Assembly: GCA_903916765.1 (NCBI GenBank) | Contig: CAIWXV010000027.1 | Location: 1-36,046, forward strand | DNA: 36,046 nt | Direction: 5' to 3' | DNA from: an uncultured Dehalococcoidia bacterium | Lineage (GTDB): Bacteria > Chloroflexota > Dehalococcoidia > Dehalococcoidales > Fen-1064 | Shown: positions 15,921 to 19,009 of the stretch, piece by piece | How positions within the stretch are numbered: position 1 is the first letter of the stretch | Layout: each line of letters begins with the position of its first letter | Translations under genes and position numbers: made by a program | Notes under the pieces: model-generated | Database searches by the model: none | The model's input: the letters and a program-made list of their open reading frames with translations, nothing else | What the model was told of the DNA's origin: nothing

Positions 15921-16145
15921 TTATGCACCGCCACGTCTGAATTTGTCCTTCATCGCCTGAATTTCTTCCAATTTCGCCATTGCTGCGGGGTCGATTGGCT
16001 CACAGGACTTCAGAACATTGTGTTCCATTCTGATTCTAAAGAGTTCACGGCATTTCCAACACCGATACGGTCCTTCGTAAACAGGGTCGGATAAGGAAAA
16101 CGTACCCTCAGTATTGCATTTGGGGCACTTTATTTTGGTTAACAT
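15921..16145 (-). CDS. Small zinc-ribbon protein
   Basis: 74 residues with one predicted zinc site: CPKC at residues 8-11 and CWKC near residues 29-32, separated by a short beta-type segment (TEGTFSLSDPVYEGPYR). The C-terminal part (AAMAKLEEIQAMKDKFRR) is a charged helix. This looks like a small zinc-ribbon regulator or adaptor; no partner is evident. GGAGG lies 11 bases before the ATG and a good promoter lies upstream, so this gene heads the pair with the tautomerase. Confidence 0.8.
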   Translation of the reverse strand: MLTKIKCPKCNTEGTFSLSDPVYEGPYRCWKCRELFRIRMEHNVLKSCEPIDPAAMAKLEEIQAMKDKFRRGGA

Positions 16146-16283: not shown

Positions 16284-16937
16284 TTAGCCATTTCTTTCGA
16301 CTAGAAGACAGATGTTCTGCGAAAATTTTTTGATGGGGAAGCGGTAACTATTTTCCGGAAAAACCTTTATCACCCGCAAACCGGCTTTCTGTGCCAAGTT
16401 CACCAACTCGGTATAGGAAAACAGATAATAATAGCGGTGCAGAGTCTCATCCTTTATTCGCCAGGGAACCAATACCACTTTCCCCCGAAACCAAAAACGC
16501 GGCTGCCAGCGATTCCATACGGTAATGAACGCCTTTCCGCCGGGTTTTAGTACCCGCTTTAACTCTACCAGTGCCGTCAGATGGTTCTGCTCTTTTAGAT
16601 GATGGTAAGTAGCTATTGAGATTACATAGTCGAAGGCTTCATTATTATAAGGTAGCTGGCAGACATCAGCGACAGTAAGATTAACCTCGAATTTGAATTT
16701 ATCCGCATATTTGCGGGCGAGTCTTAGCATCTCATCGGAAAAATCGGCACCGTATAACCCGAAATTTTGAGCAAACGGTAGAAAATCGGCGCCATGCCCG
16801 CAACCAAGATTGAGGAGCCTACCATTGCCCCAGTCTTTTGCCAGTGTTTCCAATTCGCGACGGAAAATGGTCCAGTGCCGATAATTGTACCAGCTGGGAG
16901 CTATACGATTGAAAACATCTCTGAGATTGGCTGACAT
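16284..16937 (-). CDS. Trm9/ALKBH8-like SAM-dependent methyltransferase
   Basis: A 217-residue class I methyltransferase. The SAM-binding motif I is LLNLGCGHGADFLPFA, motif II is YGADFSDEML, and ADVCQLPYNNEAFDYVISIA covers the acidic loop. The second half resembles the Trm9/ALKBH8 methyltransferase branch more than generic family 11 enzymes: SIATYHHLKE, then RVLKPGGKAFITVWN, and especially LVPWRIKDE followed by LHRYYYLFSYTELVNL. In eukaryotes that branch methylates 5-carboxymethyluridine (cm5U) at tRNA position 34 to mcm5U, after Elp3 has installed the carboxymethyl group. An Elp3 gene lies 670 bases away, on the other strand. The assignment rests on recalled motifs, not on a search; a generic small-molecule methyltransferase remains possible. 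Confidence 0.8.
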   Translation of the reverse strand: MSANLRDVFNRIAPSWYNYRHWTIFRRELETLAKDWGNGRLLNLGCGHGADFLPFAQNFGLYGADFSDEMLRLARKYADKFKFEVNLTVADVCQLPYNNEAFDYVISIATYHHLKEQNHLTALVELKRVLKPGGKAFITVWNRWQPRFWFRGKVVLVPWRIKDETLHRYYYLFSYTELVNLAQKAGLRVIKVFPENSYRFPIKKFSQNICLLVERNG

Positions 16938-16951
16938 AAGAACCTGCGCTG

Positions 16952-16977
16952 TACTAACTTCAGTACCAGTTAGTATA
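16952..16977 (-). promoter_or_regulatory. Methyltransferase promoter overlapped by an operator-like inverted repeat
   Basis: On the minus strand a TATACT -10 box (16977-16972) lies 34 bases before the methyltransferase ATG; the -35 is weak. TACTAACT (16952-16959) and AGTTAGTA (16968-16975) form an 8-bp inverted repeat with an 8-base gap that covers most of the -10 and the predicted start, which is where a repressor would bind. Confidence 0.45.
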
Positions 16978-17015
16978 ACACAGAAACCGAGGGTAAATTA
17001 GAAATGCCCAAGATC

Positions 17016-17400
17016 TTAGTGTGCTTGTTCCAGCGCAAAAACGATGTCGAAGCTAACGCTATCACCCTGAATCTCATTACCTACCGTGGTGGGGATATTC
17101 CGAACAGCCGTCAGATTGAGCCTGCTATTAGCTGTCATTGTAGTTATCCGGGCTTGCGTAATTTAGCAACGGTTGATAGTAATAAGCAATACCGCCGGCG
17201 CCGGGGGCAACATTATCCATATCGAGTGCTTCAGTTGTTTGCCCTCTACCGACTTTCAGGTCAAGAACTCCGCCAGCGAAATCGCCCTGGGCGCCATTCC
17301 ACCCATCTCCGAAGTATGCCCAGGCACCACCACTGAAGAGAAGCCCCATCAGTAAAACCACTATTGCTAAACCTAATATTTTCTTCGCTCTGCTGTTCAT
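17016..17400 (-). pseudogene. TasA/CalY-like secreted protein gene with a frameshift
   Basis: The 90-residue ORF starts MNSRAKKILGLAIVVLLMGLLFSGGAWAYF, a signal peptide, and then GGVLDLKVGRGQTTEALDM and NVAPGAGG, typical of the TasA/CalY (camelysin) family of exported, sometimes fibre-forming proteins. It stops at YASPDNYNDS. In another frame the sequence continues ITTMTANSRLNLTAVRN and GDSVSFDIVFALEQAH, ending in TAA at 17018-17016; this is the family's usual C-terminal strand pattern. So a one-base insertion (or two-base loss) near 17150 splits a gene of about 128 codons. It could be an assembly error or a real mutation. Confidence 0.7.
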
Positions 17401-17519
17401 TTTTTGTTCCTGTATCTACAGAATAATGTTTCGGTGATAAACTAAATATTAAACAACAGGGTAACACTCTAAACATTTCATAAATATTTCCATTGATTTG
17501 GAGGTTTCCCTCCCCACCC

Positions 17520-17548
17520 GAATATTCATCGCTGCACTTAGAATGACA
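17520..17548. repeat. Possible dispersed-repeat relic upstream of elp3
   Basis: GAATATTCATCGCTGCACTTAGAATGACA resembles the GATTCTTCGCTGCGCTCAGAATGACA-type motif common in dispersed noncoding repeats. It falls inside the N-terminal extension of the ORF-track elp3 frame, which is a reason to place the elp3 start further downstream. Confidence 0.35.
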
Positions 17549-17605
17549 ATATCAGGACTCGGGGATAGCACTGCGGTACCAGATTTTGATACACTATTGG
17601 GAGTT

Positions 17606-19009
17606 ATGGGAAAACCACAGATTACAATGAGAAAATCCACGCGCACTATTTCCGGCGTGACACCGGTTGCCGTAATGACTGCACCGATGCCCTGTCCCGG
17701 CAGGTGTGTCTATTGCCCGACTTATTCCGAGACGCCTCAGAGCTACACACCGGAATCGCCGGCGGTACTGAGAGGCAAAGAGTGCCAGTATGATGCCGTC
17801 AAGCAGGTAAAGATACGGATAGCAGGTCTGGCAGATATGGGTCACCCCATAGATAAAATCGAGCTCATCATTATGGGCGGGACCTTCCTTGCTACACCGA
17901 AAGACTACCAATACCAATTCGTCAAAGAATGCTTTGATGCTATGAATGAAGCAACATCTGTCTCTCTGGAAGAAGCCAAAAAAATCAACGAGACGGCGGC
18001 TTGCCGTTGTGTCGGACTATGTATCGAGACCAGACCCGATTTCTGCGGCGAGGAAGAAGTAAAAAGGATGCTGGAATTCGGCACAACCCGAGTGGAAATC
18101 GGCGTGCAAACACTGGATGACGATATCTATAATATGGTAAGAAGAGGGCATCTTATCGAGGATGTAAGTAGAGCTACGGCGCTTCTCAGAAAGTACGGCT
18201 TCAAGGTACACTACCACTGGATGCCAGGGCTACCAGGTTCGACACCGGAGCACGACTTGGCAATGTCCCGACAGCTATTCGACGACCCTCGTTTCCGTCC
18301 CGACGGTCTGAAAATATACCCGACGGTGGTAGTCTCCGGCACAGAACTGGGAAAATGGTATCAGGAAGGGCGCTATAAGCCTTATGATAACAATACCATG
18401 CTCAACCTGGTAGCAGATATCAAAGCCATTGTTCCGAAATACGTCCGCATCTCCCGTGTTTTGCGCGATATTCCAGTCAAATTCATCGTTGCCGGCTATA
18501 AAGAATCACTGCGCGGTCCTGTCAAAAAAACGATGCAGGCGAAAGGTATGGAGTGCCACTGTATCCGTTGCCGCGAGTACGGGCACAGGGTAGCAGACGG
18601 CTGGCAAATCGGCGAACCGATATTGAAAAGGATGGATTATCCAGCTTCCGGCGGTACAGAGATTTTTCTGTCTTTTGAGGATGAGAAAGAAACCCTATTC
18701 GGGCTTTTAAGACTGCGCATCCAGTCTGAGTCTATATTAAAAGTATCAGAGCAAAGCAATATCAACCCTACCGTCATCATCAGGGAACTGCATATTTATG
18801 GACCGGAAGTGCCGCTCAAGTACCAGAGCCCCAATGCCGTCCAGCACAAAGGTCTGGGGAAAGCATTACTCAGAGAAGCGGAACGTATTGCCAAAGAGGA
18901 GTTCAAGTCTTCACAGATGCTGATTTTGAGCGGCGTGGGAGCCAGGGAATACTATCGTACCGAATTCGGCTATCATCTGGCAGGTGATTATATGGTGAAA
19001 AGATTATAG
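17606..19009 (+). CDS. elp3: Elp3-type tRNA uridine-34 carboxymethyl-modification enzyme (radical SAM/GNAT)
   Basis: About 467 residues. Elp3 uses a radical-SAM [4Fe-4S] cluster and acetyl-CoA to put a carboxymethyl group on C5 of wobble uridine in tRNA (cm5U34). It opens with TISGVTPVAVMTAPMPCPGRC; the cluster cysteines are CPGRCVYC. Then come MGGTFLATPKDYQY, the LCIETRPDF and VEIGVQTLDDDIY strands, and YPTVVVSGTELGKWY. The zinc-binding linker is ECHCIRCREYGHR. The C-terminal acetyltransferase-like part ends QHKGLGKALLREAERIA, SGVGAREYYRTEFGYH and GDYMVKRL. The ORF track's TTG 17498 start runs through repeat-like sequence; ATG 17606 or ATG 17627 (MRKSTRTISGVTPV) fits the family better, though neither has a good SD. 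The Dehalococcoides mccartyi homologue has a published crystal structure, so the family is known in this class. Confidence 0.95.
   Translation: MGKPQITMRKSTRTISGVTPVAVMTAPMPCPGRCVYCPTYSETPQSYTPESPAVLRGKECQYDAVKQVKIRIAGLADMGHPIDKIELIIMGGTFLATPKDYQYQFVKECFDAMNEATSVSLEEAKKINETAACRCVGLCIETRPDFCGEEEVKRMLEFGTTRVEIGVQTLDDDIYNMVRRGHLIEDVSRATALLRKYGFKVHYHWMPGLPGSTPEHDLAMSRQLFDDPRFRPDGLKIYPTVVVSGTELGKWYQEGRYKPYDNNTMLNLVADIKAIVPKYVRISRVLRDIPVKFIVAGYKESLRGPVKKTMQAKGMECHCIRCREYGHRVADGWQIGEPILKRMDYPASGGTEIFLSFEDEKETLFGLLRLRIQSESILKVSEQSNINPTVIIRELHIYGPEVPLKYQSPNAVQHKGLGKALLREAERIAKEEFKSSQMLILSGVGAREYYRTEFGYHLAGDYMVKRL

Follow-up and report, generated by a model that had tools for sequence, protein, structure and literature searches.

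The window considered here is a stretch of 36,046 nucleotides from an uncultured Dehalococcoidia bacterium (contig CAIWXV010000027.1 of assembly GCA_903916765.1), and is contig C27 of a 149-contig, 1.37 Mb genome. It carries elp3 and, head to head with it, a gene for a methyltransferase resembling Trm9, and our concern is whether the two act in succession on the wobble uridine (U34) of tRNA. In eukaryotes, Elp3 makes 5-carboxymethyluridine at this position (cm5U34), which Trm9 or ALKBH8 methylates to 5-methoxycarbonylmethyluridine (mcm5U). The locus contains the following features:

16284..16937, minus strand: Trm9-like class I S-adenosylmethionine (SAM) methyltransferase, 217 amino acids (aa), recognised by its open reading frame (ORF), profile, residue signature, trees and AlphaFold model
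16938..17626: divergent intergenic region between both start codons, 689 bp (median of the relatives about 70 bp, n=60)
17128..17400, minus strand: truncated TasA/camelysin-family ORF, 90 aa, a PF12389 match inside the gap between elp3 and the methyltransferase gene
17627..19009, plus strand: Elp3 (radical SAM, zinc linker and GNAT), 460 aa, recognised by TIGR01211, the alignment to 5l7j and its catalytic residues

An initial annotation had pointed to four motifs in the minus-strand methyltransferase (SIATYHHLKE, GGKAFITVWN, LVPWRIKDE and HRYYYLFSYTEL), and all four lie inside the 217-aa ORF at 16284-16937. The full Elp3 that it described, with a CPGRCVYC cluster, a zinc linker and an acetyltransferase end, is equally borne out. 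The window Elp3 scores 594 bits against TIGR01211 (cut-off 350), matches the crystallised Dehalococcoides mccartyi Elp3 (5l7j) over its full length (E 1e-203), and is identical to the D. mccartyi protein at 294 of 458 positions (64%). The CxxxCxxC cluster (CPGRCVYC) and the zinc-linker cysteines (CHCIRC) are retained, and the acetyl-CoA-site and catalytic residues K77, K193, E386/E387, H388/H389 and Y441/Y442 are all intact. The elp3 frame is open from 17498 and ends at 19009; of the possible starts, ATG 17627 is taken as the likely one, rather than ATG 17606, because it aligns with residue 1 of the crystallised protein. Depending on this choice the two genes are 668-689 bp apart, in keeping with the divergent spacing of some 670 bases reported at the outset, and the gap is the third largest among 60 loci of the class.

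Linkage and co-occurrence of the two genes

Is the pair a peculiarity of this contig? In a survey of 294 genomes of the class, elp3 was found in 61 (59 scoring above the cut-off and two with a split gene), and a relative of the methyltransferase is present in 60 of these, in a few as split or partial matches. The profile found it in none of the 233 elp3-negative genomes. Family matches stand apart from those to generic methyltransferases, since full or near-full matches score at least 151 bits and generic ones at most 60. In all 60 genomes the methyltransferase gene lies on the same contig as elp3 and divergent from it, with a median gap of 70 bp; in the remaining elp3 genome, G220, the contig ends within elp3, and the partner side is not visible. 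The carriers span about 19 family-level groups, and conservation of the arrangement in 60 of 60 testable elp3 genomes excludes chance. D. mccartyi itself carries the pair: genome G044 encodes an Elp3 100% identical to the crystallised protein, with the methyltransferase gene 67 bp away.

An independent motif-based scan covered 85,462 GTDB species with patterns seeded by yeast Trm9 and two family members. Its yield was 66 loci, which apart from two labelled Deltaproteobacteria all bear Chloroflexota names, and elp3 is divergent from the methyltransferase gene in 60 of the 61 with enough flank. Because its patterns are biased toward the Dehalococcoidia family, the restriction to Chloroflexota is no proof of absence elsewhere; a GTDB scan with patterns from yeast Trm9 alone gave no matches. 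The sole flanked locus that breaks the arrangement, L128, is a close relative with an ABC-transporter gene pair instead of elp3 upstream of the methyltransferase gene. The two loci labelled Deltaproteobacteria, L184 (JABMRW010000015.1) and L185 (JAUVYB010000004.1), bear the Dehalococcoidia-type methyltransferase; the contig of L185 is as long as G236:C41, from a genome in the window's own order, and the Deltaproteobacteria label looks wrong.

A search across the phylum turned up a further group (f88, f118, f130 and others), probably Anaerolineae, in which 43 genomes have elp3 without the Dehalococcoidia-type methyltransferase. Reading of the elp3 flanks shows that the same divergent position is there occupied by a second, much-diverged Trm9-like methyltransferase, which the phylum search misses as an effect of its threshold (E <= 1e-25). 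A profile of this second family, A6, matches 41 of the 43 elp3 genomes and none of 37 elp3-negative genomes. The gene is divergent from elp3 within 3 kb in 36 genomes, and unlinked yet present in five. This co-occurrence without linkage favours function over an inherited neighbourhood. The system extends beyond Dehalococcoides, and beyond its class, and the initial proposal that the two genes form one joint system, for which a survey of neighbourhood and co-occurrence had been suggested, is supported by a near-perfect association in the class and by adjacency and co-occurrence with elp3 in two groups of the phylum. The elp3 frames of the second group (G298 and others) run to about 530-670 codons, with model matches that begin earlier than in the Dehalococcoidia type, hinting at an N-terminal extension that D. 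mccartyi Elp3 lacks.

Two further ORFs of the window deserve mention. The TasA-like pseudogene described initially as the only gene between the pair is indeed the only one. Its 90-aa ORF aligns just to positions 3-61 of the 196 of PF12389 before a stop, and is therefore a truncated remnant; in 66 related loci no copy accompanies the pair, and the ORF is therefore private to the window genome or its close kin. Downstream of the methyltransferase gene is a 74-aa zinc-ribbon ORF (15921-16145, minus strand), kept in 14 of 66 related loci together with a tautomerase and RimI. We considered this ORF as a substitute for Trm112, the partner of eukaryotic Trm9, and dropped it on account of its presence beside the pair in so few loci.

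Relationship of the methyltransferase to Trm9

Scans with Pfam and NCBIfam give generic family names only for the window methyltransferase. Searched with phmmer, the PDB gives Yarrowia Trm9 (5cm2, E 2.4e-14) as the best match, with unrelated methyltransferases close behind, and more specific tests were therefore applied. When all of the PDB was searched with just the substrate-side half, Trm9 was the sole good match (E 0.0016, the next match being at 0.55). A hidden Markov model (HMM) built only from the yeast, Yarrowia and haloarchaeal Trm9 sequences scores 29 family members at 64-101 bits and every outgroup at 52 bits or less, and a profile-profile comparison of the family with Trm9 gives E 9e-25. 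For the second family, a search of its profile against the PDB finds Trm9 as the best match and the only one over the full length.

Alanine mutants of yeast Trm9 at R29, H115, R241, Y243 and N271 lose tRNA affinity and kcat, the turnover number (PMC5372719). These five residues align with R20, H112, R168, Y170 and N208 of the window methyltransferase. The complete signature is found in 27 of 29 family methyltransferases, and four of the five residues in the other two. Outgroups, namely Escherichia coli CmoM, UbiE, UbiG and BioC, the genome's own paralogues and the nearest plasmid-borne methyltransferases, have from none to two; these counts leave out the Nonomuraea and Salinirubellus rows, which are in wrong frames. 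The second group keeps counterparts of R29, H115 and R241 in 20 of 20 sequences, with V, A, C or T at Y243 and no aligned N271, and its members share an extra conserved LLDW block (L207, L208, L209, L211, L212, L214, L215 and L217-L236). These alterations mean that the substrate pocket of the second family may differ.

Two properties of the reference sequences should be stated. The yeast Trm9 sequence used had 281 aa rather than the published 279; the extra residues fall ahead of residue 241 and were taken out. This sequence aligns to 5cm2 at E 3e-70 and has R29 and H115 at their published positions. Archaeal Trm9 is represented in the comparisons by one haloarchaeal plasmid sequence. A haloarchaeal Trm9-like methyltransferase is encoded at 2492-3202 of L123, on an 828 kb plasmid of Natronorubrum bangense.

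The AlphaFold model of the window methyltransferase (predicted local distance difference test, pLDDT, 87) has a predicted two-stranded lid, of the kind known from Trm9, formed by residues 154-161 and 164-171. In a fold search the Trm9 crystal structure 5cm2 ranks third, with the highest target TM-score (0.82) and the lowest root-mean-square deviation (2.8) of the list. Judged by these tests, the family is a Trm9-like enzyme with a Trm9-type active site, and strict orthology to Trm9 is likely. The resemblance to Trm9 and ALKBH8 noted initially has thus stood up to profile-HMM comparison, the Trm9-only profile separating the family from the outgroups. The affinity with UbiE-like or antibiotic methyltransferases that would have spoken against it is not seen: the family has the five Trm9 residues, the Trm9-only profile sets it apart from every other methyltransferase tried, and the trees place it beside Trm9 with moderate support, which is lost when the second Chloroflexota family is included.

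A proposed two-enzyme pathway at the wobble uridine

What other wobble-uridine enzymes do these bacteria have? MnmG was found neither in any of the 38 elp3-positive class genomes examined nor in any of 12 from the second group. Full-length MnmE tracks MnmG almost exactly, the exception being one fragmentary genome that has MnmG without a full MnmE match, and is absent from all 50 elp3-positive genomes tested. Both proteins are present in some elp3-negative relatives. Fifteen of the 21 elp3-negative class genomes tested are also without MnmG and full-length MnmE (G001, G012, G014, G018, G030, G031, G045, G048, G054, G063, G078, G093, G046, G064 and G272). All 45 genomes searched for MnmA have it, and CmoB exceeds its cut-off in none of 45; the 37 elp3-positive genomes tested all carry MnmA and are without CmoB. 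Thus 2-thiolation is available and the route through uridine 5-oxyacetic acid (cmo5U) is not, and, MnmE, MnmG and CmoB being absent, Elp3 is the only known enzyme able to start synthesis of C5-substituted uridines of the xm5U34 type in these genomes.

We propose that the products of the divergent gene pair act one after the other in a single wobble-uridine pathway. Elp3, through its radical-SAM and acetyl-CoA sites, would place a carboxymethyl group on C5 of U34 in tRNAs that read purine-ending codons, giving cm5U. The Trm9-like enzyme would hold the cm5U34 nucleotide beneath its two-stranded lid by means of R20, H112, R168, Y170 and N208, and would use SAM to methylate the carboxylate, giving mcm5U. 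MnmA would further thiolate position 2 in tRNA-Glu, tRNA-Gln and tRNA-Lys, yielding 5-methoxycarbonylmethyl-2-thiouridine (mcm5s2U). The pair would in this way replace MnmE and MnmG in these Chloroflexota. What the comparisons show is the gene content and its arrangement, the co-occurrence, the conserved residues and fold, and the lack of MnmE, MnmG and CmoB; the substrate, the product and the freedom from Trm112 are inferred. That Elp3 makes cm5U34, and that a counterpart of Trm9, apparently in no need of Trm112, turns this by methylation into the predicted product mcm5U (mcm5s2U with MnmA), we consider quite probable. The broader proposition, that a whole branch of the phylum runs a two-protein pathway of the eukaryotic and archaeal type, in which Elp3 and a Trm112-independent Trm9 supply mcm5U and mcm5s2U in place of the products of MnmE and MnmG, we also think likely, with somewhat less assurance.

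Several observations weigh against this proposal. The Dehalococcoidia profile as a whole gives Trm9 no clear lead in the PDB (1ve3, 73.6 bits; Trm9, 73.1), a search that does not discriminate because the SAM-binding core dominates it. In maximum-likelihood trees the join with Trm9 is moderately supported (90/88 and 75/95, or 98/93 with a mis-framed row), and it loses support once the second Chloroflexota family is added. In the second group Y243 and N271 are without counterparts. Eukaryotic Trm9 requires Trm112, and a Trm112 partner is the main defining feature of Trm9 that is missing here. No stand-alone small Trm112 was found in the carriers of the Dehalococcoides/Dehalogenimonas-type family f2, nor in the carriers G105, G158 and G249, where a diverged copy could be missed in each case; Trm112-like small proteins turn up in many further genomes, whether or not these have elp3, among them that of the window. 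The bacterial Trm9-like enzyme probably works without an obligate Trm112. Finally, the D. mccartyi Elp3 has been crystallised, and its tRNA-induced acetyl-CoA hydrolysis was weak in vitro (PMC6367351).

Of the other explanations, the one that fares best is that the methyltransferase acts differently on the product of Elp3 or on tRNA, making another xm5U34 derivative or modifying another position, so that the end nucleoside is not mcm5U. Retention of only three of the five Trm9 residues by the second group would fit a different handling of substrate, and Grosjean et al. suggest that the archaeal U34 product may be similar, not identical, to mcm5s2U (PMC2584109). Against this, the Dehalococcoidia enzyme has all five substrate-side residues and matches Trm9 through its substrate half, and we judge a different product to be unlikely.

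Might the two genes simply be neighbours by descent, the methyltransferase being an ordinary Methyltransf_11 enzyme of unrelated function? Related genomes do share arrangements by descent, and the database names are generic. However, the two genes stay adjacent in about 19 families of the class, whereas neighbours other than elp3 are kept in just 11-21 of 66 loci; the gene is never kept without elp3 (0/233 and 0/37); and the distant second family is equally paired, with unlinked genomes retaining the gene. A neighbourhood by descent only is accordingly quite improbable. A role like that of E. coli CmoM, which converts cmo5U34 to its methyl ester, mcmo5U34, has in its favour an analogous chemistry, since CmoM is a bacterial enzyme that methylates a carboxyl group on U34 (E. 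coli gene annotation); it is made very improbable by the lack of CmoB, and by CmoM itself, which gives one of the lowest scores against the Trm9 profile (9 bits), has one of the five signature residues, and falls outside the family in trees. That the enzyme methylates a quinone or other small molecule, as UbiE, MenG or UbiG do, is hardly credible, for the UbiE/MenG models that are its best NCBIfam matches reach 45 bits against a curated cut-off of 216, all such models are far below their cut-offs, and a separate protein of the genome (locus L004) groups with E. coli UbiE in a tree that sets the family elsewhere.

Comparison with known systems

If the Elp3 and Trm9-like pair acts as proposed, mcm5U is also a bacterial nucleoside, and D. 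mccartyi is the simplest known source of a complete cm5U-to-mcm5U pathway. The gene content suggests that a modification hitherto attributed to eukaryotes and archaea is made by these bacteria. A 2020 catalogue of nucleosides does not list mcm5U for bacteria (PMC7694415), and a 2017 review describes the Trm112-dependent methyltransferases as having no recognisable bacterial relatives (PMC5372719). A 2020 review notes that xcm5U34 derivatives in Dehalococcoides lack direct evidence, that clade being the only bacterial source of Elp3 it names, and reports that an archaeal Elp3 makes cm5U34 in vitro (PMC7663514). Our literature search, from which subscription papers may be missing, found no paper describing a bacterial pair of Elp3 and a Trm9-like enzyme. 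From the conserved partner gene follows a definite prediction, open to test, for the product of bacterial Elp3, and the pair extends the Elp3 pathway across a phylum and would explain life without MnmE and MnmG.

With Trm9 (and its Trm112) and the methyltransferase domain of ALKBH8, the window family shares the class I SAM fold, the predicted two-stranded lid, the five active-site residues, similarity through the substrate half, and Elp3 as a partner. It differs in being bacterial and about 30% identical, in having a C-terminal insertion before the N208 strand and no large insert before the lid, and in that several carriers are without a stand-alone Trm112. The archaeal systems resemble the pair in that a stand-alone Elp3 is accompanied by a Trm9 homologue, the two genes being clustered in one archaeon or more; an Elp3-Trm9 gene cluster is described in Sulfolobus solfataricus and a prediction was made for Haloferax, with Trm9 homologues reported from a subset of archaea only (PMC2584109, PMC5372719). 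Here, by contrast, the pair is bacterial, its head-to-head order is strict, and hardly any elp3 genome is without it.

MnmE and MnmG, with MnmC or MnmM, also have U34 as their target, in tRNAs of the same sort, but their chemistry uses glycine or ammonium and gives 5-carboxymethylaminomethyluridine (cmnm5U) or 5-aminomethyluridine (nm5U), and they are absent from all elp3 genomes tested. E. coli CmoM is a bacterial methyltransferase that likewise esterifies a carboxylate on U34; it differs in its substrate, cmo5U, and in its branch, and the gene of its pathway, cmoB, is absent here. A further known relative is the D. mccartyi Elp3 (PDB 5l7j, 5l7l and 6ia6), 64% identical to that of the window and with the same methyltransferase as its partner 67 bp off, although the literature on it found here names no such partner. 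In D. mccartyi the pathway would be a small two-enzyme system, one half of which has already been crystallised, against the at least 15 proteins that serve it in yeast.

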